From Quadrisphaera sp. RL12-1S (lineage in GTDB: Bacteria > Actinomycetota > Actinomycetes > Actinomycetales > Quadrisphaeraceae), in contig NZ_JACNME010000001.1 in assembly GCF_014270065.1 (NCBI RefSeq), forward strand, positions 186,001 to 250,000: a stretch of 64,000 nt of DNA, in the 5' to 3' direction. Position numbers and translations under genes: made by a program. Every line of letters starts with the position of its first letter. Within the stretch, counting starts at the first letter, position 1. This document shows, in pieces, positions 47,767 through 63,470 of the stretch. The notes beneath the pieces were generated by a model. The model searched no databases. It saw nothing but the letters and a program-made list of their open reading frames with translations, and was not told the DNA's origin.

Positions 47767-49356
47767 TCAGACCAGCGAGCAGACGGTCTTGCCCTCGAGG
47801 TAGCCCGCCAGCCCCTCCATCCCGTTCTCCACGCCCCACCCGGACGTCCGCCGGCCGCCCTTGACGAGCTCCGGGGAGAACACCGCGTGGCAGTTCACCC
47901 ACACCGTCCCCGCGCGCACGCCGTCGACCACCCGCTGCGCGGTGCGCAGGTCGCGCGTCCACACGCTGGCGGCCAGGCCGTAGTCGGTGTCGTCGGCCGC
48001 GGCGACCACCTCCTCGAGGTCGTCGAACGGCGCCACGACCACCACGGGGCCGAAGACCTCCTCGCGCACCAGCGGCGAGGAGGGGTCGGCCCCGACGACG
48101 ACGGCGGGCGCGAAGAAGCAGCCGCCGCCGGAGGCGTCCTCCACCGGACCACCGCCGCCCACGACCTGCGCCCCGGCAGCGACGCCGTCGGCCAGGCGCT
48201 GGGCCACCCGCTCCGCGTGCGCGGGGCTCGCGAGCGGCCCGAGCTGGGAGGAGGGGTGCAGCCCGTGCCCGAGCGCCTGCGCCGCGGCCTGCGCGGCGAG
48301 CGCCTCGACGAAGGCGTCGTGCGCGGCGCGCTGCACGTAGACGCGCGACCCGGCCACGCACACCTGGCCGGAGTTGGCGAAGACGCCGCGCGCCACGCCA
48401 GGCACCGCGGAGGCCATGTCGGCGTCGGCCATGACGACGGCCGGCGACTTGCCGCCCAGCTCCAGGGTGAGCCGGGGCAGGTGGCCGCCGGGACGCCCGG
48501 CGGACCTCACGAGAGCGCGCCCGGTGGCGGTGGAACCGGTGAAGGCCACCTTGTCGACGCCCGCGTGCTCCGCGAGCGCCGCCCCGACCGCGCCGCCGCC
48601 GGTCAGCAGCGACACGACCCCGCGGGGCAGGCCCGCCTCCCCCAGGGCGCGGACCACGAGCTGGACCAGCCGCACGGACGTCAGCGGGGTGTCCTCAGCG
48701 GGCTTGAGGACGACGACGCACCCGGCCGCCAGCGCTGGCGCCACCTTCATGGCGGCCATGAGCAGGGGCGAGTTCCACGGCGTGATCGCGGCGACCACGC
48801 CCACGGGCTCCAGCACGGTGCTCGCGACGAGGCGCGTCCCCGGCGCCGCGTACGGGGGCAGCGGCGCCGAGGGACGGAACGTCGTGCCGGTGACCTTGGT
48901 GGCGGCTCCCGCGAAGTAGCGGAACTGCTCGGCGGCGCCGGCCACCTCCCCGCGGGCCGTGGCGAGGGTCTTGCCCTGGTCGAGCACCTCCAGCTGTGCG
49001 AGCTCCTCGGCGTGCTCGGCCAGCAGGTCCGCCACCCGCCACAGCAGGCGGCCGCGCGCCGAGGGCGTCGCCGCCCACCAGGAGGTGCTGCCCCGGTCGT
49101 CGAGGACGGCCCGGGCCGCCTCGACGGCGGGTCCCACGTCCTCGGCGCAGGCCTCGGCCACCTCGGCGAGCACCGCCCTGGTGGCCGGGTCGCGAGTGGT
49201 CCGGCGCTCCCCGGTCGCGGCGGGGTGCCACTGCCCCGCGGTGAACAGCCCCGCCGGCTCGGAGCACCACGCGTCGAGCAGGGCCCGCACGGGGGTGGAG
49301 ACGGCCTCCGCCGGCGCGCGGCCACCGTCGACCAGGGCCGCGGGCGCAGCGCTCAC
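47767..49356 (-). CDS. Aldehyde dehydrogenase family protein
   Basis: A 529-residue NAD(P)-dependent aldehyde dehydrogenase. The oxyanion Asn195 is in TPWNSPLL, the general-base Glu299 in LTLELGGKSP, and the nucleophile Cys333 in GQVCVAGSRVY. The C-terminal GWGVENGMEGLAGYLEGKTV is typical of betaine/phenylacetaldehyde-type members. It is the last gene of a six-gene minus-strand operon; its GTG start overlaps the amidohydrolase stop. An N-terminal extension of about 30 residues precedes the usual fold. Likely oxidises an aldehyde made by the GMC or thiamine-diphosphate enzymes of the same operon. Confidence 0.93.
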   Translation of the reverse strand: MSAAPAALVDGGRAPAEAVSTPVRALLDAWCSEPAGLFTAGQWHPAATGERRTTRDPATRAVLAEVAEACAEDVGPAVEAARAVLDDRGSTSWWAATPSARGRLLWRVADLLAEHAEELAQLEVLDQGKTLATARGEVAGAAEQFRYFAGAATKVTGTTFRPSAPLPPYAAPGTRLVASTVLEPVGVVAAITPWNSPLLMAAMKVAPALAAGCVVVLKPAEDTPLTSVRLVQLVVRALGEAGLPRGVVSLLTGGGAVGAALAEHAGVDKVAFTGSTATGRALVRSAGRPGGHLPRLTLELGGKSPAVVMADADMASAVPGVARGVFANSGQVCVAGSRVYVQRAAHDAFVEALAAQAAAQALGHGLHPSSQLGPLASPAHAERVAQRLADGVAAGAQVVGGGGPVEDASGGGCFFAPAVVVGADPSSPLVREEVFGPVVVVAPFDDLEEVVAAADDTDYGLAASVWTRDLRTAQRVVDGVRAGTVWVNCHAVFSPELVKGGRRTSGWGVENGMEGLAGYLEGKTVCSLV

Positions 49357-50735
49357 CAGGCCACCTCCGGGAGACCGTGCTCGGCCACCCACGCGGCGCG
49401 GCGCTCGAAGAGGCCGGGCGCGGCGGCTCGGGCGTCGTCGACGAGCTCGCCGAGGTCGGCGTGCACGAGCGCCCCGTCGCGGACGACCGGGGCGCCGTCC
49501 ACCCAGACGTGGTCGACGTCGGACCCGCGCACGGCGTGCACGAGGTTGTGGTGGACGTTGAGCAGCGGCCCCGAGGTGACCAGCGGGGTCATGCGCGGGG
49601 TGCGGGAGCGCACGGCCACGACGTCGGCCTTCTTGCCGACCTCCAGGGAGCCCAGGTCGGCCTCGCGCCCCAGGGCCCGCGCGCCGCCGGTGGTGCCGAG
49701 GGCGAAGGCGTCCCAGCTGGGCAGGGCCGCGGCGTCGAGGTCGCGCAGCTTGGCCAGCAGCGAGGCGGCCTTGAGCTCCTCGAACACGTCGAGGTTGTTG
49801 TTCTCCTTCTCCCCGTCGGTCCCCAGGCCGACGGCGACGCCCGCGGCCAGCAGCTCGCGCACGCGGGCTGTGCCGCTGGCGAGCTTCATGTTGCTGACCG
49901 GGTTGTGCACCACGCCGACGCCGCGGTCGGCCAGCAGGGAGATCTCGTCGTCGTCGAGCCAGACCGCGTGGGCCAGCACGGTGCGCGGGGCGTCGAGCAT
50001 CCCGAGGCGCTCCAGGGCGCGCACCGGGCGTGCGCCGTAGCGCCGCTCGAACTCGGCGACCTCGTCGCGCGACTCGCTGCAGTGCGTGTAGAGGCCGGTG
50101 CCGAGGTCGTGCGCCATCGCGACAGCTCGGCGCTGCGCGGCCTCCACGGCGTAGAAGGGGTGCTCCAGCCCCACCCAGACCTCGATCCGCCCGGCGGCGC
50201 CGCCGTGGTGGTCGGCGGCGAGCCGCTCGACGTCGTCGAGGGTGTCGAAGAAGTCGTGCCGCGGGTGCTCCGCGGCGTACGGGACCGCCACCAGCCGGTT
50301 GCCGAGCAGCTCCGCGGCCCGCGCGCCGCCGTGCAGGAACCGCCACATGTCGACGACGGTGGTGGTGCCCGCCAGCAGGCCCTCGGCGTAGCAGAGGCGG
50401 GCGGCCACCTCGGCCTCGCGGGCGGTGAGCACCCGGTGCATGGGGTCGATGTGGACCCTCAGCCACTCCCACACGGGCAGCTCCTCGGCGGTGCCGCGCA
50501 GCAGGCCCGAGTGGTGGTGGGCGTTGATGAGACCGGGCAGGAGCACGTGGTCGGGCAGGTCCTCCACGGCGGCGCCGGGGTGCTCCGCGAGGACGGCGGC
50601 CAGCACCTCCTCGCGCGGGCCGACAGCGGTGATGCGGTCTCCGACCAGCGCCACGGCGCCGTCGGCGAGCACGGTGTGCGCGGCGTCCCCCACGACGACG
50701 ACGCCCGCGGCCAGCACGCGCACCTGCGCGCTCAC
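49353..50735 (-). CDS. Amidohydrolase family deaminase/chlorohydrolase-like enzyme (SsnA/TrzN/AtzB group)
   Basis: A 460-residue metal-dependent hydrolase. The metal ligands are His73 and His75 in LLPGLINAHHHSG, His in GTGLYTHCSESRDE, His in VLAHAVWLDDDE and Asp in GLGTDGEKENNN. The group deaminates or dechlorinates purines, pterins, triazines and S-adenosylhomocysteine. It is coupled by GTGA overlaps to the GMC oxidoreductase before it and the aldehyde dehydrogenase after it. A nitrogen heterocycle or amine substrate is likely but not determined by sequence. Confidence 0.88.
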   Translation of the reverse strand: MSAQVRVLAAGVVVVGDAAHTVLADGAVALVGDRITAVGPREEVLAAVLAEHPGAAVEDLPDHVLLPGLINAHHHSGLLRGTAEELPVWEWLRVHIDPMHRVLTAREAEVAARLCYAEGLLAGTTTVVDMWRFLHGGARAAELLGNRLVAVPYAAEHPRHDFFDTLDDVERLAADHHGGAAGRIEVWVGLEHPFYAVEAAQRRAVAMAHDLGTGLYTHCSESRDEVAEFERRYGARPVRALERLGMLDAPRTVLAHAVWLDDDEISLLADRGVGVVHNPVSNMKLASGTARVRELLAAGVAVGLGTDGEKENNNLDVFEELKAASLLAKLRDLDAAALPSWDAFALGTTGGARALGREADLGSLEVGKKADVVAVRSRTPRMTPLVTSGPLLNVHHNLVHAVRGSDVDHVWVDGAPVVRDGALVHADLGELVDDARAAAPGLFERRAAWVAEHGLPEVAW

Positions 50736-52285
50736 GGTCGCACCGCCCAGGGTGCGAGCAGGTCGGCCAGGCGCTCGGCCAGCGCGACGACGGGCGCGAG
50801 GGTGTTGCACGTCGGCACGGTGGGGAACGCCGACGCGTCGGCCACCCGCAGGCCGTCCACACCGCGGACGCGGAGCTCGGGGTCGAGCACGGCGCGCTCG
50901 TCGTCCTCGCGCCCCATCGCCGCGGTGCCGCAGGCGTGGAAGAAGGTGGTGCAGGCCAGGCTCATGAACTCCTCCAGGTCGGTGTCGCTCGTGGTGGGGC
51001 CGGCGGACGGCAGCGGCGCCAGGCGCTGCGCGCCCAGGGCCGCGAAGACCGGGCCGTCGGCCAGCTCCAGCACGTCGCGCAGGCCCTGCCGCAGGGCCGC
51101 GCGGTCCGCCGGGTCGGCGAGGAGACCCGGGTGCAGGTCCACGGCCCCGCCGGGCGCCAGGTCGCGGACCACCAGGTGCCCGCGGCTGCGGGACCCCATC
51201 AGCCCGACGCCCAGCCCCACCAGGTGCGGGTCGGCCCTGTCGAGCTGGTGGGCTGCGGCCACCGCGGGGGTGGCGCACGCCGCCTGCGTGACGAAGCAGT
51301 GCAGGTCGGGCGCGTCGCTGCGCGGGGAGCCGCTGCGCCAGTTCCACACCGCGCCGCCGCCGTTGTCGCGCACGGGCCCCCGGGGTCCGCGCAGCCGCAG
51401 CGTCACGCCCTCCAGCAGCGGGTGGTCCTGCAGCTCCCGCCCGACGCCGGGGACGGCGCTGACCACGGGCACGCCGAGCCGCGCGAGGTCCGCGGGGTCG
51501 CCGACCCCGGAGGCCAGGAGCAGGCGCGGGGTCTCGACGGCTCCGCCGCACAGCACCACCTCACCGTCCCCGGCCACCGCCGTCCGCACCGCCCGCCCGC
51601 CGACGAGGTGGACGACGGCGACGGCCCGGCCGCGCCGCACCTCGACGCGCAGCACCGGGCTTCCCGTGAGGACCGTGAGCGACCCGCTGCCCGGCACCTG
51701 CGCGAGCGGCGGCAGCTCGCGCAGGTAGGCGCGTGAGGTGCTCCACCGCCGCGAGGCCCGCCCGCCAGCGCCGTCGTCCTCCGAGGTGGCGGTGAGCTCG
51801 GCGAGCTCGGCGAGCCCGCCCACCCCCTGCCTGCCGGCCGCCTCCACGGCGTCCACCAGTGCGGTGGCCACGGGGTGCGGGTCGCGCGGGCGCTCCACGC
51901 GCAGCACGCCCTCGGCGCGCGCCAGGCACGGCGCGAGGTCGGCCCAGGCCCATCCCGGAACGCCCCAGCCGTCGTAGTCGCTCGGGTGGCCGCGGTACCA
52001 GAGCATCGCGTTGGTGCTGCTCGACCCGCCGAGCACGCGCCCGCGCGGCAGCGGGATCCGCCGCCCCGCCACCTGCGGCGACGGCGCGTAGGCGAGTCCC
52101 CAGTCGAGCTCACCCCCGAGCATCGCCGGCCACGCGCCGGCGTCGGCGACGTCCTCGCGGCCGGTGTCGTCGGGGCCCGCCTCGAGGAGCAGGACCGCCG
52201 CGCCGCGCTCGGCCAGGCGGCGGGCCACCACGCAGCCCGCTCCCCCACCGCCGACCACCACGTGGTCGTACCCGGGGCCTGGCAT
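50732..52285 (-). CDS. GMC family FAD-dependent oxidoreductase
   Basis: A 517-residue glucose-methanol-choline oxidoreductase. FAD-binding starts at residue 6 (YDHVVVGGGGAGCVVARRLAERG), followed by RGRVLGGSSSTNAMLWYRGHP and the second signature VVLCGGAVETPRLLLASGVG. The catalytic histidine region is TTFFHACGTAAMG and the end is PTCNTLAPVVALAERLADLL. It oxidises an alcohol to an aldehyde or ketone. The ATG overlaps the upstream stop by one base (TGATG). It is probably the alcohol-oxidising step of the operon. Confidence 0.92.
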   Translation of the reverse strand: MPGPGYDHVVVGGGGAGCVVARRLAERGAAVLLLEAGPDDTGREDVADAGAWPAMLGGELDWGLAYAPSPQVAGRRIPLPRGRVLGGSSSTNAMLWYRGHPSDYDGWGVPGWAWADLAPCLARAEGVLRVERPRDPHPVATALVDAVEAAGRQGVGGLAELAELTATSEDDGAGGRASRRWSTSRAYLRELPPLAQVPGSGSLTVLTGSPVLRVEVRRGRAVAVVHLVGGRAVRTAVAGDGEVVLCGGAVETPRLLLASGVGDPADLARLGVPVVSAVPGVGRELQDHPLLEGVTLRLRGPRGPVRDNGGGAVWNWRSGSPRSDAPDLHCFVTQAACATPAVAAAHQLDRADPHLVGLGVGLMGSRSRGHLVVRDLAPGGAVDLHPGLLADPADRAALRQGLRDVLELADGPVFAALGAQRLAPLPSAGPTTSDTDLEEFMSLACTTFFHACGTAAMGREDDERAVLDPELRVRGVDGLRVADASAFPTVPTCNTLAPVVALAERLADLLAPWAVRP

Positions 52286-52965
52286 CAGTTGTGCTCGCTC
52301 GGGCCCATGATCGTCACGCCCTCGGTCGCCTCGACGTGCCGCACGAACCGGTAGGTGTCCTCCCGGCCGTCGCTGTGCTTGCGGCGCACCACGGGGTGCC
52401 CCGCTGCCGCGTGGCCCTCCGGGGACGTGTCGACCTTGGCGACGACCACGTGCGGGGCGGCGGTGTCGGCGAGGCCCGCCGCGCACGCCGCGGCGAACGC
52501 CTCGACGTCGCGGACCGTGCTCGCGCGCACCACGCCCGCGCCCCGGGCGATGGCCGCGAGGTCGACGGTCCCGGAGGAGGTGTGCGTGCGCGGTCCGCCG
52601 ATGGACTGGTACCGCTCGTTGTCCCACACGACCACCAGCAGGTTGCCCGGCTGCTCGTTGCCCAGGGTGGCCAGCACGCCGAGGTTGAACAGCAGGCCGC
52701 CGTCGGTGTCGAGGGAGACCACCCGCCGGTGCGGCAGACCTGCCGCCAGGCCGAGCGCCTGCGGCGTCACGCAGCCGAGCTGCTGCTGGAACAGGCTGGC
52801 CTCGCGCAGGTGCGGGGCCGCGGTGTACCACTCGTCGACGGCGCCGCCGAGGGAGAGCACCACCAGCTCGTCGGACAGCAGTGCCGCGAGCGCCTCCATG
52901 GCGGAGAAGCGCGTCATCGCCGACGCCGGCTCCCGCACCACCGGGCCGCTCACCGGGCTGGTCAT
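52285..52965 (-). CDS. Thiamine-diphosphate-dependent enzyme, C-terminal (TPP-binding) subunit
   Basis: A 226-residue subunit holding the TPP-binding domain. The cofactor motif reads LDTDGGLLFNLG (the usual GDG is TDG) and ends with VVWDNERYQSIGG, so the Mg-binding Asp and Asn are kept. It resembles the beta subunit of sulfopyruvate/phosphonopyruvate decarboxylases. It overlaps the gene for the partner subunit by ATGA and the GMC gene by one base. An upstream in-frame extension exists but the overlapping ATG at 52965 is preferred. With its partner it should act on a 2-oxo acid or an equivalent acyl compound. Confidence 0.87.
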   Translation of the reverse strand: MTSPVSGPVVREPASAMTRFSAMEALAALLSDELVVLSLGGAVDEWYTAAPHLREASLFQQQLGCVTPQALGLAAGLPHRRVVSLDTDGGLLFNLGVLATLGNEQPGNLLVVVWDNERYQSIGGPRTHTSSGTVDLAAIARGAGVVRASTVRDVEAFAAACAAGLADTAAPHVVVAKVDTSPEGHAAAGHPVVRRKHSDGREDTYRFVRHVEATEGVTIMGPSEHN

Positions 52966-53462
52966 CGGACCGTGCCCCCGCCGAGCACGACCGCCGAGTG
53001 CTGGTAGGCCGAGTACGACCACTCGTAGGCGTCCACCACGGCCTGCTCGATGCCGGCCTCCTCACGCACCACGCGGTAGGGGATGCGCAGCGCCGCGAGC
53101 ATCGGCTCCATCGTGATCCCGTGGGGAACCGCCCACCAGTTGTTCTCGCCCAGCTCCCCGCGGTAGCTCATGACCATGACCACGGGGATGCCGGAGCCCA
53201 GGCCCATCCGGGCCAGCGGCTCGGCGGCCGCGCGCAGCCCGGAGTTCTCCATGCACAGCACGGCGCGCTTCCCCGAGAGGAACACCCCGCCGCACACGGC
53301 GGCGCCCTCGCCCTCGTTGGTGCAGGGGATGGTGCGGATGCCCGGGTGGGCGTCCAGCGCCGGGTACAGAGGCTTGAGCAGCGAGTCGGGCAGGTAGCTG
53401 GCGATGGTGACGCCGGCGCGCTCCAGCCCGGCGATCACCGCTTGGACGGCGGTCGGGGTCAT
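52962..53462 (-). CDS. Thiamine-diphosphate-dependent enzyme, N-terminal subunit (ComD-like)
   Basis: A 166-residue subunit with the pyrimidine-binding domain of TPP enzymes. The catalytic glutamate lies in IPCTNEGEGAAVCGGVFLSGK. LPDSLLKPLYPALDAHPGIRT and VMVMSYRGELGENNWWAVPHG match the sulfopyruvate decarboxylase alpha-like family. It needs the C-terminal subunit encoded by the next, overlapping gene. A three-copy 12-bp repeat separates it from the flavin monooxygenase gene upstream. Confidence 0.87.
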   Translation of the reverse strand: MTPTAVQAVIAGLERAGVTIASYLPDSLLKPLYPALDAHPGIRTIPCTNEGEGAAVCGGVFLSGKRAVLCMENSGLRAAAEPLARMGLGSGIPVVMVMSYRGELGENNWWAVPHGITMEPMLAALRIPYRVVREEAGIEQAVVDAYEWSYSAYQHSAVVLGGGTVR

Positions 53463-53472
53463 CGGTCTCCTC

Positions 53473-53508
53473 GGGTGCTGGTCGGGGTGCTGGTCGGGGT
53501 GCTGGTCG
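53473..53508. repeat. Tandem 12-bp repeat within the catabolic operon
   Basis: GGGTGCTGGTCG occurs three times in tandem in the 48-base gap between the monooxygenase and thiamine-diphosphate subunit genes, the only non-overlapping junction in the operon. Confidence 0.85.
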
Positions 53509-53510
53509 GT

Positions 53511-54848
53511 TCAGAACTCGGTGAGGTGGCCGCGCAGGGTGGCGGCGGTGTAGCGGCTGCGCACCAGCCCGCGCCGCTGCAGCACCGGCACCAGGCCCTC
53601 GGTGACCTGGACGACGTAGTGGCGCGAGAGCCGGTGGAACGGCGTGGTGACGAGGAAGCCGTCCCCGCCGACCTCCTCGGCCGCGGCCTCCAGCTGGTCG
53701 GCCACGTGCTCGGGGGTGCCCACGAGGTCGAGGGAGGAGTTGGTGCTCGCGTCGGCAGCGAGCTCGCGCAGCGGCTTGGCGCTGGGCCGGCCCTCACCGT
53801 CGAGCTGGGCGAACTTGGCCAGCGTGCCGAGCGAGCCGCGAGCCGAGCCCGCCAGCAGCTGCTCGGGAGGAGGCAGGGGCGCGTCGAGGTCGAGCGCGGT
53901 GAGGTCGACGCCGGTGTAGGCACTGAACTTCGCCAGCGTCGTCGCGAGCGCGGTCGGGTGCGCCGCCGAGCGCGCCAGGGCCGCCCGGGCCTCCTCCTCG
54001 GTCTCGCCGAGCACCGGGGCCACGAGGAAGAGCACCCTCAGCTCGTCGGGGTCGCGCCCGGCCTCGGCGGCGAGGCGACGCACGTCGTCACGGGCGGCCT
54101 TCATGGCCACCGGCCCGCTGGCCACCGCGAGCACGAGGTCGGCGTTGCGCGCGGCGAAGGCCCGCCCGGTGGGCGACCCGCCGGCCTGGCAGTAGACGGG
54201 TCGCCCCTGCGGGGACCTGACCGTGGTGAGCGGACCCGCCACCGGGTAGCGCGGGCCGGGCGCGTCGACGGCGTGCACGCGGGTGTGGTCGGCGTAGGTG
54301 TGGCTGGCGCGGTCCATGACGACGGCGCCCTCGTCCCAGCTGTCCAGGAGCGCCGTGACCACGTCCACGTGCTCCTGTGCCGCGGCGTACCGCTCGTCGC
54401 GGTCCGGCAGGGCGGCCAGGCCGGCGTTGCGGGCCTCGGCGTCGTCGGTGCTCGTGACGATGTTCCACCCGGTGCGCCCGCCGGAGAGGGAGTCGAGCGT
54501 GGAGACCAGCCGCGCCAGCAGGAACGGCGGGTAGAGCAGCGTCGACAGGGTCGTGACCACGCCCAGGTGCTGCGTCGCGGCGGCCATGAGGGCCGACAGC
54601 GGGGCGGGGTCGTGCCGCGGGGCCCGCACACCGGTGCGCAGCAGCAGCTCTCGGGTGCCGCCGGCCTCCGCGGAGACGGCGAGGGAGTCCTCCAGCAGCA
54701 CCAGGTCGAAGCAGGCCCGCTCCAGCGCCCGGGCCAGGTCGGTGTGGAAGGCGCCGTCCCACGGGGTCCCACCGGCGGACGCGAAGGGGGCGTCCCACTC
54801 GTCGGGGCCGAAGTGCGTGAACCACCCGAGGTGGAAGGGCCGTGCCAC
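53511..54848 (-). CDS. LLM-class flavin-dependent monooxygenase (NtaA/SnaA/DszA group)
   Basis: A 445-residue FMNH2-dependent monooxygenase with the luciferase-like TIM barrel. Diagnostic segments are FHLGWFTHFGPDEWD, ARLVSTLDSLSGGRTGWNIVTS and QAGGSPTGRAFAARNADLVL. Members cleave C-N or C-S bonds of chelators, sulfonates or thiophenes and need a flavin reductase, which is not encoded nearby. The GTG at 54848 gives the conserved start. First gene of the six-gene operon, so oxygenation is probably the entry reaction. Divergent from the methyltransferase gene across a 249-base gap (54849-55097) in which I see no clear regulatory motif. Confidence 0.9.
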   Translation of the reverse strand: MARPFHLGWFTHFGPDEWDAPFASAGGTPWDGAFHTDLARALERACFDLVLLEDSLAVSAEAGGTRELLLRTGVRAPRHDPAPLSALMAAATQHLGVVTTLSTLLYPPFLLARLVSTLDSLSGGRTGWNIVTSTDDAEARNAGLAALPDRDERYAAAQEHVDVVTALLDSWDEGAVVMDRASHTYADHTRVHAVDAPGPRYPVAGPLTTVRSPQGRPVYCQAGGSPTGRAFAARNADLVLAVASGPVAMKAARDDVRRLAAEAGRDPDELRVLFLVAPVLGETEEEARAALARSAAHPTALATTLAKFSAYTGVDLTALDLDAPLPPPEQLLAGSARGSLGTLAKFAQLDGEGRPSAKPLRELAADASTNSSLDLVGTPEHVADQLEAAAEEVGGDGFLVTTPFHRLSRHYVVQVTEGLVPVLQRRGLVRSRYTAATLRGHLTEF

Positions 54849-55097: not shown

Positions 55098-56402
55098 GTG
55101 CCGCAGGGACCCGCTGACGCGTCGTCGTCGTCCGACTCCCCCGCGGCGGCGAGCGTGGCCCCGCTCCTGCGGCCCGAGGGGTGGGCGCTGCTGGAGGCGC
55201 TGCCGCCCTACGCCGGCCCTGACGCGGCGATGGCCCTGGGCGAGCGGCTGCGCGCCGAGGGCGCCGAGCCGCAGCTGGTGGCCGCCGCGATGACGCAGTC
55301 GCGGCTGCGGGCGAAGGGCGAGGCCAAGTTCGGGCCCTTCGCCGACGGCATGCTCTTCACCGCTGAGGGCCTGGAGCAGGCGACGCGGCTGCAGGTGGCC
55401 GCCCACCACGCGCAGCGCTTCCGCGACGCCGGGTGCACCCGGGTGGCCGACCTCGGCTGCGGCGTCGGCGGTGACGCCATGGCCCTGGCCTCCCTCGGCC
55501 TGGGCGTGCTCGCCGTCGACAGGGACGAGGCCACCGCCGCCGTCGCCACCGTGAACCTCAGGCACTGGCCCGAGGCGCAGGTCCACCGCGCCGACGTCCT
55601 CGACGTCATCACCGAGCTGGGGCGGGACGGCTCGGTGGACGGCGCCTGGCTCGACCCGGCCCGGCGCACCGCCGCGGGACGGCGCGTCCTCGACCCCCAC
55701 CGCGCATCGCCGCCGTGGAGCGCCGTGCTCGACGTCGCCCGGCGCGTGCCCGCCACGGGCGTCAAGCTCGCCCCCGGCGTCCCGCGCGACATCGCCGCTG
55801 GCTCCGGGCTGCCCGCTGAGGTGCAGTGGGTCTCCGTCGACGGCGACGTGGTCGAGGCGGCGTGCTGGTTCGGGCCGCTCGCGCGACCGGGCCGGGCGGC
55901 GAGCGCGCTGGTGCTGCGCTCCGCCGAGCGCGGCGGCACCGCGACCCTCGTCGACGACGACGACCTGCCCGTCCCGCCCGCGGTGGCCTCGCCGGAGGGT
56001 GTCGGCACCTACCTGTACGACCCGGACGGCGCCGTCGTGCGCTCCGGGCTCGTCGGGCAGGTGGCGGCGCTGGTGGGAGGGTCGCTGCTGGACCCGAGCA
56101 TCGCCTACGTGACCTCCGACCGGCTCGTGGCGACCCCGCTGGCCCGCGCCTTCGCGGTGGAGGAGGTCTGGCCGTTCGGGCTGAAGGCGCTGCGCACCCG
56201 CCTGCGGATGCGCGGCGTCGGCGCCGTGGAGGTGCTCAAGCGGGGCAGCGCGGTCGACGTCGAGCAGCTGCGCCGCTCCCTGCGCCTGGAGGGGGCGCGC
56301 CAGGCGACCCTCGTGCTGACCAGGGTGGCGGGGCGCCAGCACGTGCTGCTGTGCCGCCCGGTGGCGACGTCCGTGACGACGGCGGGACCGCCCTCCTCCT
56401 GA
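55098..56402 (+). CDS. Class I SAM-dependent methyltransferase with THUMP-like C-terminal domain
   Basis: A 434-residue protein. The SAM-binding motif is RVADLGCGVGGDAMALASLGLGVLAVDRDE (about residues 115-145), with acidic residues closing the next strand, and LDPARRT in the position of motif IV. The C-terminal part (about 350-430, LKRGSAVDVEQLRRSLRL...) matches the THUMP-like domain of actinobacterial rRNA/tRNA methyltransferase-like proteins. GTG start with GAGGA upstream. It stands between the catabolic operon and the importer operon but is probably unrelated to either. Confidence 0.85.
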   Translation: MPQGPADASSSSDSPAAASVAPLLRPEGWALLEALPPYAGPDAAMALGERLRAEGAEPQLVAAAMTQSRLRAKGEAKFGPFADGMLFTAEGLEQATRLQVAAHHAQRFRDAGCTRVADLGCGVGGDAMALASLGLGVLAVDRDEATAAVATVNLRHWPEAQVHRADVLDVITELGRDGSVDGAWLDPARRTAAGRRVLDPHRASPPWSAVLDVARRVPATGVKLAPGVPRDIAAGSGLPAEVQWVSVDGDVVEAACWFGPLARPGRAASALVLRSAERGGTATLVDDDDLPVPPAVASPEGVGTYLYDPDGAVVRSGLVGQVAALVGGSLLDPSIAYVTSDRLVATPLARAFAVEEVWPFGLKALRTRLRMRGVGAVEVLKRGSAVDVEQLRRSLRLEGARQATLVLTRVAGRQHVLLCRPVATSVTTAGPPSS

Positions 56403-56573: not shown

Positions 56574-57731
56574 GTGCCGTCGATCGACCGCCACCACCAG
56601 CAGCTCGTCCGCAGCGCCCTGGGGCGACGCTCCTTCCTGCGGATGGCGGGGCTCGCAGGGCTGGGCGTGGCCGGCGCCAGCACCCTGGCCGCCTGCGGCG
56701 GCTCCTCCACCGGGGCCTCCGGCGGCGGGTCGAGCAGCGGCGGCTCCGCCGACCACGGCGACCTGGCGATCCAGCTCTCCTGGATCAAGAACATCGAGTT
56801 CGCCGGTGAGTTCTTCGCCGACTCCAAGGGCTACTACAAGGACGCCGGGTTCTCGAGCGTCAACCTCATCGCGGGCGGTTCCGCCGGCACCAGCGCGGAG
56901 GCAGCTGTCACCTCCGGCAAGGCGCTCGTGGGCCTGTCCTCCCCCACGCTCACCGCCCCGGCCATCAACGAGGGCGCACCTCTGAAGATCATCGGGACGA
57001 CGTTCCAGAAGAACGCGTTCTGCATCGTCTCGCTCGACTCCAACCCCATCCCCGACCCGGCGGCGATGAAGGGCAAGAAGATCGGCGTGCAGTCCGGCGG
57101 CAACGAGCAGATCTTCTCCGGTCTGCTCAAGGCCAACGGCATCGACCCGAGCTCGCTGACCATCGTCCCCGTGCAGTACGACCCGACCGTGGTGACCACC
57201 GGCGAGGTCGACGGCTTCATGGCCTACCTCACCAACGAGCCGATCCTCCTGCAGGGCAAGCGCTTCAAGACCGTGCAGTTCGCCTTCGCCGACCACGGCC
57301 TGCCGCTGGTCACGGAGACCTTCACCGTGGCGCAGCAGACCATCGAGGAGGACCGCGACAAGCTCAAGGCCTTCCTCAAGGCGGAGGTCCTCGGGTGGAC
57401 GGACGCGCTGAACAACCCCGACGAGGGCGCCAAGCTCGCGGTGGACCAGTACGGCAAGGAGCTCAAGCTCAACCTCGAGGAGCAGCTCAAGGAGATCAAC
57501 GCGCAGGCCACCCTCATCGTCACGGACGACACCGTGAAGAACGGCCTGTTCACCATGACCGACGAGCTCATCGCCACCAACATCGAGTCGCTCGCCACGG
57601 CCGGCACCACGATCACGGCCGAGAAGCTGTTCGACCTCTCGCTCTTGGAGGAGGTCTACTCCGAGGACCCGTCGCTGGTCACCGGACCCACCCTGACGCC
57701 CGAGGCCGCCGCCTCGGCCGCTCCCGCCTGA
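56574..57731 (+). CDS. ABC transporter substrate-binding lipoprotein, NMT1/THI5-like
   Basis: A 385-residue binding protein of the ThiY/TauA fold. A twin-arginine signal (RRSFLRM, 18-24) leads to the lipobox LAAC with Cys41, suggesting a Tat-exported lipoprotein. The mature start LAIQLSWIKNIEFAGEFFADSKGYYKDAGF is very close to pyrimidine-precursor (HMP)-binding proteins. An adenine-deaminase-type gene follows after a hairpin, then the ATPase and permeases, so a purine or related base is the likely ligand. GTG start with GGAGG nearby. The upstream gap 56403-56573 holds two copies of TCCTAGCG but no recognised riboswitch. Confidence 0.9.
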   Translation: MPSIDRHHQQLVRSALGRRSFLRMAGLAGLGVAGASTLAACGGSSTGASGGGSSSGGSADHGDLAIQLSWIKNIEFAGEFFADSKGYYKDAGFSSVNLIAGGSAGTSAEAAVTSGKALVGLSSPTLTAPAINEGAPLKIIGTTFQKNAFCIVSLDSNPIPDPAAMKGKKIGVQSGGNEQIFSGLLKANGIDPSSLTIVPVQYDPTVVTTGEVDGFMAYLTNEPILLQGKRFKTVQFAFADHGLPLVTETFTVAQQTIEEDRDKLKAFLKAEVLGWTDALNNPDEGAKLAVDQYGKELKLNLEEQLKEINAQATLIVTDDTVKNGLFTMTDELIATNIESLATAGTTITAEKLFDLSLLEEVYSEDPSLVTGPTLTPEAAASAAPA

Positions 57732-57746
57732 CAGCCAGCCCCGCTC

Positions 57747-57780
57747 GCGGTGGCCGGCGCGTCCGCGCGCCGGCCACCGC
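57747..57780 (+). terminator. Intercistronic hairpin after the binding-protein gene
   Basis: A perfect 15-bp stem (57747-57761 with 57766-57780) with a TCCG loop, 15 bases after the stop. Such hairpins often stabilise the abundant binding-protein mRNA and reduce transcription into later genes. Confidence 0.8.
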
Positions 57781-57809
57781 GGAGGGGGCCCGTCCCCGGA
57801 GGGACCCGC

Positions 57810-58817
57810 ATGGACGCAGCCCTGCTGCCCAAGGCCGAGCTCCACGTGCACGTCGAGGGCACGCTCGAGCCGGAGCTCGTCGTCGAGCTGGCCCAGCGCC
57901 ACGGCGTGGCGCTGCCCACCACCGACCCCGCGGCGCTGCGGGCGGCCCGGCGCTTCACCGACCTGCAGTCCTTCCTCGACCAGTACTACGAGGCGGCGGA
58001 GCTGCTGCGCACCGAGCAGGACTTCCACGACCTCATGGCCGCCTACCTCGCCCGCGCCGAGCGGGCCGGGGTCCGCCGCGCCGAGGTGTTCCTCGACCCC
58101 CAGCACCACACCGAGCGCGGCGTGCCGCTGGAGGCCGTCTTCGACGGGCTCAGCGCCGCGGCGGCCGCGAGCCCCGTGTCGGTCGACCTCGTCCCCTGCT
58201 TCCTGCGCCACCTCGGGCCCGACGCCGCCCTCGAGGCGCTGCGCACGTGGCTGCCCCACCGCGAGCACTTCGTCGGCGTGGGCCTGGACTCCACCGAGGT
58301 CGGCAACCCGCCGGCCGCCTACGCCCCCGCGTACGCCGTGGCCGCCGCCGAGGGGCTGCACCGCACGGCGCACGTCGGCGAGGAGGGCACCGCCGCCGAC
58401 GTCGCCGAGGCCCTCGACACCCTCGGCATCGAGCGGCTCGACCACGGCAACCACTGCCTCGACGACGGCGAGGTGGTCGCCCGGCTGCGCGACACCGGCA
58501 CACCGCTGACGGTGTGCCCGCTGAGCAACGTGGCGCTGCGGGTGGTCAACGCGCTGGAGGACCACCCGCTCCCGGCGATGCTGGCGGCGGGCCTGCAGGT
58601 GAGCGTCAACAGCGACGACCCCGCCTACTTCGGCGGGTACGTCGACGACAACTACCGGGCCCTGCGCGACGTCGTCGGCCTCACCGACGACCAGCTCACC
58701 GCCCTGGCGCTGGCCTCCTTCGACGCCAGCTTCGCCGAGCCCGCCGCCAAGGACGCCTGGCGCGCCGAGGTGCGCGCTGCCGCGTCCGCGCCGCTGGCCT
58801 CCCCCACCGCCAGCTGA
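57810..58817 (+). CDS. Adenine deaminase-type member of the adenosine/AMP deaminase family
   Basis: A 335-residue zinc hydrolase. Metal and substrate residues appear in LPKAELHVHVEGTLEPEL, RTAHVGEEG, RLDHGNHCLDD and VSVNSDDPAYFGGYVDDNY. The NSDDPAYFGGY and LSNVALRV segments and the spacing match Aah1/PA0148-type adenine deaminases rather than adenosine deaminase. It should convert adenine to hypoxanthine. GGAGGGA precedes the ATG at 57810. The gene lies inside the transporter operon, between binding protein and ATPase, which links import to purine salvage. Confidence 0.88.
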   Translation: MDAALLPKAELHVHVEGTLEPELVVELAQRHGVALPTTDPAALRAARRFTDLQSFLDQYYEAAELLRTEQDFHDLMAAYLARAERAGVRRAEVFLDPQHHTERGVPLEAVFDGLSAAAAASPVSVDLVPCFLRHLGPDAALEALRTWLPHREHFVGVGLDSTEVGNPPAAYAPAYAVAAAEGLHRTAHVGEEGTAADVAEALDTLGIERLDHGNHCLDDGEVVARLRDTGTPLTVCPLSNVALRVVNALEDHPLPAMLAAGLQVSVNSDDPAYFGGYVDDNYRALRDVVGLTDDQLTALALASFDASFAEPAAKDAWRAEVRAAASAPLASPTAS

Positions 58818-58832
58818 CAGCTGAGGAGCACC

Positions 58833-59677
<845 letters not shown>

Positions 59678-59678
<1 letters not shown>

Positions 59679-60511
59679 TGGCCGCCGGGCTCGAAGGCGC
59701 TGCTCCCCCCACCGAGCAGGAGCTCGAGGCGCGCGCCACGCGCTCCGTCGAGCGCCCCCGCTGGCTGGCCGGCGTCCTCGGCGTCGTCGGCATCCTCGCG
59801 CTGTGGTCCCTGCTCGCCGTCACGGTCTTCGCAGGCGGCGGCGGCGTGCCCACCCCGTGGGCCGTCGTCGCGACGATGGGCGCGGACGGCTGGGCCCTGT
59901 ACGGCCCCAACTCCCTCGTCACGGTGAGCAGCGCCGCGCAGGGCTTCCTGTGGGGCAACGCCCTAGCGCTGCTCCTCGCGGGCGCCGTCCTCGTGGTCCC
60001 CCAGCTCGACGGCCTGGTCACGCAGCTGGGCGTCATCAGCTACTGCATCCCGCTGACCGCCATCGGCCCGATCATCCAGATCGTCTTCGGGGGCAGGTCC
60101 ACCTCGATCTTCCTGGCCGCGGTGGCCGTCTTCTTCACCACGCTCATCGGCTCGCTGCTGGGCCTGCGCGCCGCGGACCGCACGAGCATCGACCTCGTGG
60201 CCGCGTACGGCGGCAGCCGGCTGCAGCTGCTGCTGAAGGTGCGCCTCATCTCGGCGCTGCCGAGCCTGCTCGCCGCGCTGATGATCGCGGCTCCCGCCGC
60301 CATGCTCGGCGCGATCATCGGCGAGTACCTCGGAGGGGTCGACAGCGGCCTCGGCGTGGCCCTCACCAACGCCCAGCAGCAGTTCGACGTGCCCCGCACC
60401 TGGGGGCTCGCCATCGCCACCGGCGCCATCGCCGGCGCCGGCTACCTCGTCTTCAGCCTCGTCTCGCGGGTCGTCACGCCGTGGTCGGCCGGACAGGAGG
60501 GCACCTCGTGA
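59678..60511 (+). CDS. ABC transporter permease (NitT/TauT type), first
   Basis: A 277-residue membrane protein with about six helices. The EAA-type loop is LVAAYGGSRLQLLLKVRLISALPSLLAALMIAAP, which contacts the ATPase. A charged N-terminal tail precedes helix 1. It overlaps the next permease gene by GTGA. Confidence 0.92.
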
Positions 60512-61437
60512 GCGCACCCACCGGCACCTCGGACCCCACCGACGCGCGCGACGCCGCCGACCTCACCACCCCACCACCCGCAGGCAGTCCCGTGCCGACG
60601 CCGTCCACCAGCTCCGCGGGCGAGTCCGTGCGCCCCGCCGGCCACGTCGTCGGGACGGCGCTCTGGCGCGCGTTCAGGCCGCTGCTCGTGTCCGCCGTCG
60701 TCGCCCTGGTGGTGTGGTGGGGGGCCCTCGCCGCCTTCGACATCAGCCCCTTCATCGGCAAGACTCCGCAGGACGTGTGGGCCTACCTCCTCACCGACCC
60801 CGACGCCGCGACCAACCGCGCGACCATCGCAGGGCCGCTGGGCGTCACCCTGCAGCACGCCCTCGTCGGGTTCGTCGCCGGCATGGCGGCGGCGCTGGTG
60901 GTGGGCGCCGCGTTCGTCGTCGCGCGCTCGCTCGAGCAGTCGCTCATGCCCATCGCCATGCTGCTGCGCTCGGTGCCGCTGGTCGCGATGACCCCGATCA
61001 TCGTGCTCGTCGCCGGACGCGGGCTCGGGTCCATCGCGGTGATGGGCGGCATCGTCGTCTTCTTCCCCGCCCTGGTGAACGTCGTCCAGGGCCTGCGGTC
61101 GGTGCCGCCGACCTCGCGCGACCTCGTGCACGCCTACGGCGGCTCCGACCTCGCGGTGATGCGGCGGGTCGGCATCCCCACCGCGATGCCGGCGATCTTC
61201 GCCGCCGCCCGCATCTCCGTGCCCGGCGCGCTCACCGGCGCGCTGGTGGTGGAGTGGCTGGCCACCGGCAACGGGATCGGCTCGCAGATCCTCAAGGCCA
61301 TCGGCGGCTTCCGCTACGACGAGGTGTGGGCGCTCATCGTGGCCGTCACGGCCGCCTCCGTGGTGCTCTACACGCTGGTCGGCCTGCTGGAGGGGCTGGT
61401 GCTGGCGCGGTACGCCCCGCACCGCCTCGCGACGTGA
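60508..61437 (+). CDS. ABC transporter permease (NitT/TauT type), second
   Basis: A 309-residue membrane protein. The EAA-type loop is LVHAYGGSDLAVMRRVGIPTAMPAIFAAARISVPGALTGALVVEW. A proline/serine-rich N-terminal tail of about 45 residues precedes the first helix. Together with the preceding permease it forms a heterodimeric channel. Overlaps the first permease by GTGA. Confidence 0.93.
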   Translation: MSAPTGTSDPTDARDAADLTTPPPAGSPVPTPSTSSAGESVRPAGHVVGTALWRAFRPLLVSAVVALVVWWGALAAFDISPFIGKTPQDVWAYLLTDPDAATNRATIAGPLGVTLQHALVGFVAGMAAALVVGAAFVVARSLEQSLMPIAMLLRSVPLVAMTPIIVLVAGRGLGSIAVMGGIVVFFPALVNVVQGLRSVPPTSRDLVHAYGGSDLAVMRRVGIPTAMPAIFAAARISVPGALTGALVVEWLATGNGIGSQILKAIGGFRYDEVWALIVAVTAASVVLYTLVGLLEGLVLARYAPHRLAT

Positions 61438-61467
61438 GCGGCGGCGCGTCCTGACAGGGTGGGCGGC

Positions 61468-62445
61468 GTGACCGCATCCGCCCGCGGCGCGCGACGGCGC
61501 GTCGTCCTCGACACCGACCTGGGCACCGACGTCGACGACGCCCTCGCTCTCGCCCTGCTGCTCGGCTCCCCCGAGGTGGAGCTGCTCGGGGTCACCACCG
61601 TCTACGGCGACACCGGCCTGCGCGCGCGCGCCACCTCCCGGCTGCTCGAGCTGGCCGGGGTGCCGGGCCCGGCGGCACCCGGGGGCCTGCCCGTGCGCGC
61701 GGGTGCGGCCGCGCCGCTGTCCGGGACGCCGGTGTGGTGGGCCGGCCACGAGGGCACCCTCCTGGGGGACCTCACGACGGCGACGACGACCCCGCCGGCG
61801 CCCGGCCGCTCCGCCGCCGAGGACGCCGCCGACTGGCTCGCCGCCACGGCCGCCTCGGCACCGGGCGGGGTGGACCTGCTCGCCATCGGCCCGCTGACGC
61901 AGGTGGCGACGGCCCTGCGCCACCACCCGGAGCTGGCGTCCCACCTGCGCTCGCTCGTGGTCATGGGTGGCCGCTGGGACGGGGCGCTCACCCCCGAGGG
62001 GCTCCTGGAGGACGAGCACAACCTCCGCAGCGACGCGGTCGCGGCCGCTGAGGTCCTGACCAGCGGCGCCACCACGCTCGTCGTCGGCCTGGAGGTCACC
62101 CAGCAGGTGCGGCTGGAGCCGGGCGACGTCGAGCGCATCGCCGCGGCCGGGCCGCTGGGCGCCGCCCTGGCGGCCCAGGTGCGCCAGTGGTGGGAGTTCT
62201 GGGACGAGCCGTGGGGAGTCCCGCACGACCCGGTGACCGCGCTGCTGCTCGTGCAGCCGGAGCTGCTCGAGCTCGGCCCGCCGGGTCGCGTCGAGGTCCA
62301 CGACCGCGGCGCGGTGGTGCACCACCCCGACCCGGCGGGCACCGTGCGGGTCGCGCTCGGCGTGGACGCGGAGCGGGCGGCGGCAGCGGTCGTCCGGCGC
62401 GTGCTGGCCGGCTGCCACCGCGCCGGCGGCCGGGAGCGGGCCTGA
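61468..62445 (+). CDS. Nucleoside hydrolase (inosine-uridine preferring family)
   Basis: A nucleoside hydrolase of about 325 residues that cleaves the N-glycosidic bond of ribonucleosides. The calcium-binding DTDLGTDVDDALALAL motif at the N-terminus is intact. VTTVYGDT, VMGGRWDGALTPEG and EHNLRSDAVAAAEVL also match, although the C-terminal catalytic His region is less obvious. I prefer GTG 61468, with AGGGTGGG about seven bases upstream; GTG 61459 adds three residues. It follows the second permease by 30 bases and probably belongs to the same transcript. Confidence 0.9.
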   Translation: MTASARGARRRVVLDTDLGTDVDDALALALLLGSPEVELLGVTTVYGDTGLRARATSRLLELAGVPGPAAPGGLPVRAGAAAPLSGTPVWWAGHEGTLLGDLTTATTTPPAPGRSAAEDAADWLAATAASAPGGVDLLAIGPLTQVATALRHHPELASHLRSLVVMGGRWDGALTPEGLLEDEHNLRSDAVAAAEVLTSGATTLVVGLEVTQQVRLEPGDVERIAAAGPLGAALAAQVRQWWEFWDEPWGVPHDPVTALLLVQPELLELGPPGRVEVHDRGAVVHHPDPAGTVRVALGVDAERAAAAVVRRVLAGCHRAGGRERA

Positions 62446-62471
62446 GCCCCCCACGGCTGGCGACCGCCACC

Positions 62472-62477
62472 TAGCCT
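62472..62477 (+). promoter_or_regulatory. Leaderless -10 box for the adenosine deaminase gene
   Basis: TAGCCT ends six bases before the ATG at 62484. No Shine-Dalgarno sequence is present in the interval. Confidence 0.55.
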
Positions 62478-62483
62478 GCGCGC

Positions 62484-63470
62484 ATGACCGCGCGAGACCT
62501 CCGCCTGCTCCCCAAGGCCTCCCTGCACACCCACCTGGAGGGCTGCATGCGCCCTTCGACGCTGGCGGAGCTGGCGGCCGGGTACGGCATCCCCGTGCCG
62601 GAGACCCGCGGCTACGGGAACTTCGGCGCCTTCGCCGGCCTGTACGACGCCGCGGCGCAGTGCATCAAGACCGAGGACGACCTGCGCCGCGTGGTGCGCG
62701 AGGTGGTCGAGGACGCCGCCGCCGACGGTGCGGTGTGGGTGGAGCCGCAGCTGTGGCCGCACTACGAGAGCCCGCAGCTGGCCGACGCCGGTCAGATCCT
62801 CGACGTCGCCCTCGACGAGGGCCGCTCGACGGCGGCGCGCCTGGGCGTGGGCTTCGGGCTGATGGTGACGGCCATCCGGGTGCTGCCGCCCGAGGACGCG
62901 GAGGAGCTCGCGGAGCTGGCCGTGACCCGGGTCGACCACGGCGTGGTCTCGTTCGGCCTGGCCCACGACGAGGTGCTCGGCCCGCCGGCGCCCTTCGCCC
63001 GCGCCTTCGCGGTGGCGCGCGCCGGGGGTCTGGTCGCGGCTCCGCACGCCGGGGAGCTGCTCGGGCCTGACAGCGTCCGCTCCGCCCTGGACGACCTCGG
63101 GGCCGGCCGGATCGCGCACGGCGTGCGCGCCGTGGAGGACCCGGCGCTCGTCGAGCGCCTGGCGGCCGAGCGCGTGTGCCTGGACGTCTGCCCCACCTCC
63201 AACGTCCTGCTCGGGGTGGTCCCCTCCCTCGCCGAGCACCCCCTGCGCCGGCTCCTGGACGCCGGAGTGCCCTGCTCGGTCAACACCGACGACTCCCTGC
63301 TCTTCGGTCCCGGCCTGCTGGAGGAGTACGAGACGGCCCGCACGGTGCTGGGCCTCGACGACGCGCAGCTCGCCGCCGTGGCGCGCAGCGGCATCGAGGC
63401 CGCCGCGCACGCCCCCGCGACCCTGGTCAGCGGGGCGCTGGAGCGCGTGGAGGCGTGGCTGGCCGGCTGA
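62484..63470 (+). CDS. add: Adenosine deaminase
   Basis: A 328-residue zinc enzyme deaminating adenosine to inosine. The ligands and catalytic residues are visible: LPKASLHTHLEGCMRPSTL, AAPHAGELLGPDSV (catalytic Glu), RIAHGVRAVEDPALV, CPTSNVLLGV and CSVNTDDSLLFG. It differs clearly from the adenine-deaminase-type gene at 57810, so the window encodes both base- and nucleoside-specific enzymes. It follows the nucleoside hydrolase with a 38-base gap and may have its own leaderless promoter. Confidence 0.92.
   Translation: MTARDLRLLPKASLHTHLEGCMRPSTLAELAAGYGIPVPETRGYGNFGAFAGLYDAAAQCIKTEDDLRRVVREVVEDAAADGAVWVEPQLWPHYESPQLADAGQILDVALDEGRSTAARLGVGFGLMVTAIRVLPPEDAEELAELAVTRVDHGVVSFGLAHDEVLGPPAPFARAFAVARAGGLVAAPHAGELLGPDSVRSALDDLGAGRIAHGVRAVEDPALVERLAAERVCLDVCPTSNVLLGVVPSLAEHPLRRLLDAGVPCSVNTDDSLLFGPGLLEEYETARTVLGLDDAQLAAVARSGIEAAAHAPATLVSGALERVEAWLAG

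Follow-up and report, generated by a model that had tools for sequence, protein, structure and literature searches.

The window analysed here, 64,000 nucleotides of Quadrisphaera sp. RL12-1S (contig NZ_JACNME010000001.1, positions 186,001 to 250,000), contains six open reading frames (ORFs) on its minus strand, from position 54848 to 47767, in the order luciferase-like monooxygenase (LLM), alpha and beta subunits of a thiamine diphosphate (ThDP) enzyme, GMC oxidoreductase, amidohydrolase (AH2) and aldehyde dehydrogenase (ALDH) (Table 1). On balance, we consider it probable that these genes serve to remove a side chain in the catabolism of a purine-type ring with an amino substituent; the likeliest such compound is an adenine whose carbon side chain is attached to a C=N carbon.

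A preliminary description of the sequence had reported six families on one strand with four of the five junctions overlapping, and both the ORF coordinates and the family profile matches agree with it. The overlaps are ATGA (52962–52965), TGATG (52285), GTGA (50732–50735), and GTGA (49353–49356), and the first junction, between the genes for the LLM and the ThDP alpha subunit, is a 48-bp gap. The GC content at third codon positions was 96–98% in the four operon genes measured in frame. Downstream of the operon, the minus strand also carries groES and groEL, and no riboswitch was detected with Rfam in the window or in seven of the loci compared below. The six ORFs constitute a real operon, whose grouping is beyond chance because three congeners keep the gene order and all but one of the six genes have orthologs that cluster in dozens of genomes from two phyla. 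Solved relatives of the GMC protein include hydroxymethylfurfural oxidase and pyridoxine 4-oxidase, and its scores were below the curated cut-offs for BetA (TIGR01810, 226 against 732 bits) and for the mycofactocin-associated MftG (TIGR03970, 202 against 387 bits).

Table 1. Genes of the operon and of the divergent region upstream of it, in window coordinates.
Feature	Coordinates	Strand	Remarks
LLM monooxygenase, NtaA/DmoA family (oxygenase slot)	53511..54848	-	445 aa, GTG start; TIGR03860 382.4 bits (cut-off 279.7)
TPPa, ThDP-enzyme alpha subunit	52962..53462	-	166 aa; PF02776; nearest solved relative AzcB
TPPb, ThDP-enzyme beta subunit	52285..52965	-	226 aa; PF02775; DTDG motif common with AzcC
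GMC alcohol oxidase/dehydrogenase	50732..52285	-	517 aa; PF00732 and PF05199
AH2, amidohydrolase, predicted deaminase of an aminopyrimidine-type ring	49353..50735	-	460 aa, GTG start; PF01979
ALDH	47767..49356	-	529 aa, GTG start; PF00171 499 bits
SAM-dependent methyltransferase-like gene (resident)	55100..56402 (approximate limits)	+	Between the two inserts, outside the pathway; groES neighbour in operon-free congeners too
ABC transporter substrate-binding protein, SsuA/THI5-like	56574..57731	+	Operon-linked block; 51–53% relatives adjoin the operon in locus L149
ADA1, adenosine/adenine-deaminase-family protein	57750..58817	+	TIGR01430 320 bits (cut-off 216); start motif HVHVEGTLEPE
ABC transporter ATPase	58833..59678	+	Same block; 72% relative in L149
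ABC transporter permease	59803..61437	+	Same block; 42% relative in L149
Nucleoside hydrolase (resident)	61459..62445	+	Outside the insert; adjoins the methyltransferase in both operon-free congeners
ADA2, second adenosine-deaminase-family protein	62484..63470	+	TIGR01430 275.7 bits

The ThDP Subunits Group with an Alpha-Imino-Acid Decarboxylase

TPPa and TPPb are two small adjacent subunits, corresponding to the N-terminal and C-terminal halves of a ThDP decarboxylase and encoded with a 4-bp overlap. They had been described as a ComDE-like decarboxylase of 2-oxo acids, an assignment that we abandon: their scores were below the cut-offs for ComD (TIGR03845, 84 against 147.95 bits) and ComE (TIGR03846, 88.4 against 221.5 bits), as well as below those for phosphonopyruvate decarboxylase, and their nearest solved relative is AzcB/AzcC of Streptomyces, which the corresponding PDB titles (9u8q, 9u8r, and 9u8s) name as a “thiamine pyrophosphate (TPP)-dependent alpha-imino acid decarboxylase”. 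In the AlphaFold model of TPPa, the mean predicted local distance difference test score was 78, with two loops below 50, and the top structural match, ahead of RhiEF, was AzcB/AzcC (Z 21.1, root mean square deviation 2.4 Å, 158 residues). A Foldseek comparison of TPPa with AzcB gave an E value of 8.8e-13 at 33% identity. Both proteins share the loop R-G-x-x-G-E-x-N-W-W-x-x-P-H-x-x-T-M, which was not seen in RhiE or in seven other paralogs compared, and TPPb shares with AzcC the motif DTDG, in the place of which RhiF carries DGDG. The catalytic glutamate E50 and the residues N107-N108-W109-W110 were invariant in 22 TPPa orthologs. The sequence features of the AzcB/AzcC type (two-subunit build, catalytic glutamate, ThDP motif, and both signatures) are present in the pair of the window, which groups with this decarboxylase by sequence and fold, at 33–40% identity. 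The phosphonopyruvate (RhiEF) and sulfopyruvate (ComDE) decarboxylases have the same two-subunit architecture, but differ in the signature loop.

It is this kinship that changed the pathway with respect to the earlier one, as it suggests that the ThDP pair probably takes CO2 off a ring carboxylate rather than acting as a 2-oxo-acid decarboxylase of the ComDE kind. A role as glyoxylate carboligase or in formaldehyde condensation was also considered and set aside, as it fits neither the AzcB signature nor the short version of the cluster described below.

Conservation of the Operon Core

One scan of 84,980 genomes, carried out with two peptide patterns from TPPa and thus missing relatives that do not have them, yielded 125 TPPa relatives, from which 80 loci were kept; the window, five loci on plasmids, and a locus from one additional genome brought the comparison set to 87. 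TPPa was adjoined by TPPb in 86 of them, by the GMC gene in 81, by AH2 in 71, and by ALDH in 69, with some loci ending at contig edges. Most loci belong to Rhizobiales and Rhodobacterales, and the relatives of the operon come from about 80 soil, plant, and marine bacteria, with ortholog identities of 54–66% for AH2 and 53–62% for ALDH. In those two orders a fixed block is found, which begins with a BMP transporter, a Rieske-only protein, a glutathione S-transferase (GST)-like protein, an AdeC-like gene, and a LysR regulator, and continues with TPPa, TPPb, GMC, AH2, a Rieske-less oxygenase subunit, a xanthine-dehydrogenase-like pair, and ALDH.

The grouping is thus conserved in relatives, which bears out the proposal of a single, probably catabolic operon. 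The co-occurrence of its families holds for five of the six; the sixth, the LLM, is replaceable. The core appears to have spread horizontally over Alphaproteobacteria and Actinobacteria, including isolates from nodules, crown galls, and marine habitats. Beside the Rieske protein, 34 loci also contain an ORF of about 80–90 aa without Pfam match (e.g., L034, 7394–7633). In addition, adenosine-deaminase-like proteins adjoin the operon in three Microbacteriaceae loci (L063, 13580–14776; L066, 7480–8502; L117, 5159–6205), with the start motifs HCHFVS, HCHFAS, or HCHLIA instead of the usual HxHLEG or HxHLDG, so that their substrate may be unusual.

The Oxygenase Slot

The place of the oxygenase is occupied by a split Rieske enzyme in 69 loci, by LLMs of one lineage in nine, by LLMs of the window's lineage in two, and in two Pseudonocardia loci by a single-chain Rieske protein (346–348 aa) encoded directly upstream of TPPa. 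The nine-locus lineage belongs to Microbacteriaceae and Blastococcus, with 60–66% identity to its Blastococcus member, and the LLM of the window is about 31% identical to it, with closer relatives elsewhere (53% in Salipiger, 44% in Rhodococcus fascians). In a quick single-model tree of TPPa plus TPPb, the two LLM groups were separate, each with support of at least 95, and Rhodococcus was placed among Alphaproteobacteria with support 100. We infer that unrelated enzymes have, on several occasions, come to carry out an O2-dependent step of the same purpose. The family label given earlier to the LLM was confirmed by its profile score, but not its role in defining the pathway, since it is a replaceable part. 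The neighbourhoods of its relatives in other bacteria, which include creatininase, peptide transporters or TenA, point to no single substrate. On plasmid pFiD188 of R. fascians (L152, 6209–10296), the gene for the 44% relative, an NtaA/DmoA monooxygenase, immediately follows the cytokinin (fas) operon and has the same orientation.

The Rieske parts resemble SxtT and, weakly (E 2e-8), the N-demethylase NdmA. In most rhizobial loci the oxygenase subunit has only the VanA_C domain, and the Rieske domain is encoded as a protein of its own, accompanied by a GST-like protein (e.g., L087, 5851–7154 and 14137–15003), a set presumably reminiscent of NdmC, NdmD, and NdmE of caffeine demethylation; in contrast to the NdmABCDE system, the window uses an LLM enzyme.

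Genomic Position in Quadrisphaera

Three of the five congeners have the complete set of six genes in unchanged order (84–99% identity). Quadrisphaera granulorum bears the operon (L040), and TPPa of its strain DSM 44889 was 97% identical to that of the window. The upstream block accompanies the operon in the same three, also in conserved order (79–99% identity). The other two (L143 and L144) have neither, and their neighbours are groEL, groES, the methyltransferase, and the nucleoside hydrolase. The operon lies between groES and the methyltransferase gene, and the transporter–ADA1 block, found only in operon-bearing congeners, between the latter and the nucleoside hydrolase gene; the methyltransferase was compared across congeners with a minus-frame translation as probe. 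The operon-free congeners yielded no ortholog-level match to ADA1 (best 35% and 47%), whose motif HVHVEGTLEPE we take to be that of an adenine deaminase, and no match to ADA2 in their loci; ADA2 is probably of the same origin as the block. The nucleoside hydrolase was rejected as part of the operon, being resident in operon-free congeners too. The functional unit extends beyond the six genes described earlier: the transporter and adenine-deaminase-like genes at 56574–61437 occur only with them.

The absence of TPPa from the rest of the family sampled favours a gain of the operon in the Quadrisphaera lineage over a loss in its sister, two histories that are formally indistinguishable. Outside the genus, the nearest TPPa relatives are at most 80% identical and belong to other orders and phyla, which points to horizontal transfer.

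The Deaminase Slot and the Order of Steps

The amidohydrolase had been assigned to the SsnA/TrzN type, which its scores do not support (161 against 455 bits for TIGR03314, 160 against 444 for PRK07203, and 292 against 609 for PRK06038, of the SsnA and N-ethylammeline chlorohydrolase types); its nearest NCBIfam model is 5'-deoxyadenosine deaminase, in the 5'-deoxyadenosine/methylthioadenosine-deaminase group. In some Microbacteriaceae (L063, L066, and L085) the cluster is devoid of AH2, which is found elsewhere in the same genomes at 62–65% identity. In Subtercola (L203), a second LLM, AH2, and an ADA1 relative stand in a row, opposite the same kind of transporter.

A short version of the cluster, consisting only of an SsuA-like transporter, a nucleoside-deaminase-type gene, and TPPa/TPPb, was found in Hyphomicrobiales bacterium UR115 (on a plasmid), Pelagibacterium montanilacus, and Rhodoplanes elegans (L036, 8330–11103; L103 and L111, around position 10001). 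In the genomes of L103 and L111, AH2 had no match at E ≤ 1e-80 and no GMC protein exceeded 45% identity, which fits a pathway that begins with oxidation and has deamination immediately before decarboxylation. The type of deaminase, like that of the oxygenase, thus differs between versions of the cluster. The simplest reading would be the order oxidation, deamination, and ThDP-dependent decarboxylation, in which the short version would start from the ring carboxylate.

On an Acinetobacter sp. NCu2D-2 plasmid (L120, 1–13851), a 55% AH2 ortholog stands with the urate hydroxylase HpxO, allantoicase, a nucleoside deaminase, a BMP transporter, and a pair of single-chain Rieske proteins; N-methylated purines seem to be what this cluster degrades. 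Another actinobacterial cluster (L170, 5532–16574), with a TenA-like protein, a THI5-like transporter, a 39% AH2 relative, two LLMs, an ALDH, and a GMC-like protein, may serve the catabolism of the thiamine pyrimidine.

Purine Context and Proposed Pathway

Genes linked to purines are frequent among the 87 loci: BMP transporters of the nucleoside type in 62, xanthine-dehydrogenase-like genes in 55, and AdeC-like genes in 49, as well as 8-oxoguanine-deaminase-like genes in many and, in L074, sequences that read as uricase-like and hydroxyisourate-hydrolase-like. Purine catabolic genes are thus linked to the core in its relatives, and the window itself contains only the ADA genes and the transporter. 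The urate and allantoin genes beside AH2 in Acinetobacter, the LLM–AH2–ADA1 row of Subtercola, and the tie of ADA1 and the transporter to the operon in Quadrisphaera point the same way. This context makes a purine-type heterocycle the likely compound class. Of the substrates envisaged in the preliminary description, the nitrogen heterocycle is retained; sulfonates and simple amines found no support.

In the pathway that we favour, the divergent ABC transporter would import the compound, and the LLM monooxygenase would oxidise its side chain to an alcohol, which, judging from the families of the enzymes, GMC would convert into the aldehyde and ALDH into the ring carboxylate. AH2 would then remove the ring amino group, as its family and context suggest, and TPPa/TPPb, judging from their sequence and structure relatives, would release the carboxylate as CO2. 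The bare purine could enter ordinary purine breakdown, with the ADA-type deaminases (57750–63470) taking any remaining amino group. The oxygenation, deamination, and side-chain conversion to an acid envisaged earlier are retained in outline, with ring decarboxylation now proposed for the ThDP pair.

As best-fitting substrate we propose 2-methyladenine, with which every gene would have a role; pterins come second. 2-Methyladenine occurs naturally, bears its carbon substituent at a C=N position, and is the base of 2-methyladenosine (m2A), a widespread modification of bacterial rRNA and tRNA. Its methyl group would pass through hydroxymethyl and formyl to carboxyl, followed by ThDP-dependent purine decarboxylation, a specific assignment that we regard as tentative and, taken alone, rather doubtful.

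Several observations weigh against the favoured pathway. The signature loop of TPPa falls in a low-confidence part of its model (residues 107–116). The Acinetobacter cluster combines AH2 and two Rieske proteins with no ThDP pair in the stretch examined, and therefore AH2 also serves without decarboxylation; moreover, AH2 relatives (38–39%) occur in TenA-linked thiamine-pyrimidine clusters. The AdeC-like gene is below its equivalog cut-off (348 against 472.5) and may not act on adenine. For LLM enzymes of the NtaA/DmoA family, C-N, C-S, or ring cleavage is better known than methyl hydroxylation, with the alkane hydroxylase LadA as an exception. Finally, an importable ring carboxylate is known for pterins (6-carboxypterin), and we know of none for adenines.

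Alternative Readings

Pterin or folate catabolism, though unlikely, comes next. The LLM or Rieske enzyme would free or oxidise the C6 side chain, GMC and ALDH would lead from 6-hydroxymethylpterin to pterin-6-carboxylate, the deaminase to lumazine-6-carboxylate, and the ThDP pair to lumazine, whose ring a xanthine-dehydrogenase-like enzyme would hydroxylate. The C6 of pterins is a C=N carbon, so its carboxylate is an alpha-imino acid, and the many xanthine-dehydrogenase-like and 8-oxoguanine-deaminase-like genes suit the route. Pterins also explain the short version better, as 6-carboxypterin occurs in the environment, and the purine neighbours would be accounted for by a route from pteridines to xanthine-8-carboxylate reportedly described by McNutt. 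However, AdeC-like, ADA1, and AH2 proteins belong to families of the adenine or 4-aminopyrimidine type, whereas pterin is a 2-amino-4-oxo ring, and the BMP transporters and urate genes point to purines. Ranked behind pterins, and also unlikely, is the N-dealkylation of an N-substituted adenine such as a cytokinin, in which the oxygenase would release adenine and an aldehyde, ADA1 or AdeC would deaminate the adenine, and GMC, the ThDP pair, and ALDH would process the released chain. The resemblance of the Rieske parts to SxtT and NdmA and the C-N bond cleavage by NtaA-type enzymes are in line with it, and so is the LLM relative beside the fas operon, since few other genomes (6 of 296 at E ≤ 1e-90) contain a relative as close as that one. 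Nevertheless, this neighbourhood may be a coincidence, considering the varied surroundings of other LLM relatives, and N-dealkylation leaves a decarboxylase of the alpha-imino-acid type and AH2 with no clear job.

Catabolism of the thiamine pyrimidine, with GMC and ALDH oxidising its 5-hydroxymethyl group, the deaminase removing the 4-amino group, and the oxygenase attacking the ring, seems improbable. SsuA/THI5-like binding proteins do occur in the actinobacterial and short versions, and L170 and L121 are examples of clusters that join TenA to an AH2 relative, LLM, ALDH, and a GMC-like gene, but their amidohydrolases are just 38–39% identical to AH2, and the TPPa loci examined had no recognisable TenA, thiaminase, or formylaminopyrimidine deformylase among their neighbours; furthermore, a C5 carboxylate is not an alpha-imino acid, and the purine genes would be left unexplained. 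Least probable of all is a ComDE-like route, in which the pair would make an aldehyde from sulfopyruvate, phosphonopyruvate, or another pyruvate for oxidation by ALDH: more distant plasmid TPP pairs are followed by ALDH genes, but the missed cut-offs, the absence of the RhiE loop, and the presence of the AzcB signature argue against it. Two further routes were set aside: the iterative shortening of an eritadenine-like hydroxy-acid chain, which explained most genes, because the ThDP relatives argue for ring carboxylates and no GMC enzyme is known to us to act on 2-hydroxy acids, and the breakdown of N6-threonylcarbamoyladenosine (t6A), because it left the GMC enzyme unexplained.

Relation to Known Systems

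The search of the literature found neither a pathway with this exact gene set, in agreement with the preliminary description, nor a matching operon or cytokinin, eritadenine, or pterin pathway; for this conserved core, which appears to have spread horizontally, we thus found no counterpart in the literature. The lum cluster for lumichrome (from riboflavin) of Nocardioides simplex presents the chemistry proposed here, with a two-subunit ThDP heterocycle decarboxylase acting after a deaminating hydrolase and oxidation of hydroxymethyl to carboxyl, and, like the rhizobial version of the operon, includes Rieske and xanthine-oxidase-like enzymes; in contrast to the lum cluster, the neighbours of the operon are purine genes. 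In that system, companion oxidases convert hydroxymethyl into formyl and carboxyl, LumM turns the amino group into an oxo group, and LumK/LumL then decarboxylates a quinoxaline carboxylate that mimics a 2-oxo acid, a ThDP-dependent decarboxylation of a heteroaromatic ring reported as new in 2025 (PMC12746152). What connects the ThDP pair with LumK/LumL here is a likeness of the proposed chemistry. Neither the window nor the census of loci, searched with no Lum sequence as probe, contained a recognisable P450 (LumU), ring-opening hydrolase of the LumH/LumI type, or catechol dioxygenase of the LumE type, and a search for a Lum-like cluster with an AzcB fragment, in 390 genomes of the class, returned no relative closer than TPPa itself.

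The ThDP pair is the most conserved part of the pathway. If the proposal is true, N-heterocycles could be freed of carbon side chains by a general mechanism, and a modified purine or pteridine whose breakdown is poorly understood would be given a fate. Should 2-methyladenine be the substrate, the operon would be a purine counterpart of the route from thymine through iso-orotate to uracil, with its first oxygenase replaced several times, and would handle the base left by the decay of m2A-containing bacterial rRNA and tRNA. The exchange of oxygenases (two Rieske forms and two LLM lineages) around an otherwise constant set also provides a natural test of the step of each enzyme.

The N2,N2-dimethylguanine hydrolases NdmH and the AtzB group (PMC13054789) are likewise amidohydrolases that act on alkylated purines, and 8-oxoguanine-deaminase-like genes stand in several clusters, although AH2 belongs to another branch, near 5'-deoxyadenosine deaminase. 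In addition, amidohydrolases of the 8-oxoguanine-deaminase/AtzB group or of the guanine-deaminase type adjoin the cluster in L034 (1–1275) and L116 (12836–14197), and some of this kind may be N2,N2-dimethylguanine hydrolases (PMC13054789).

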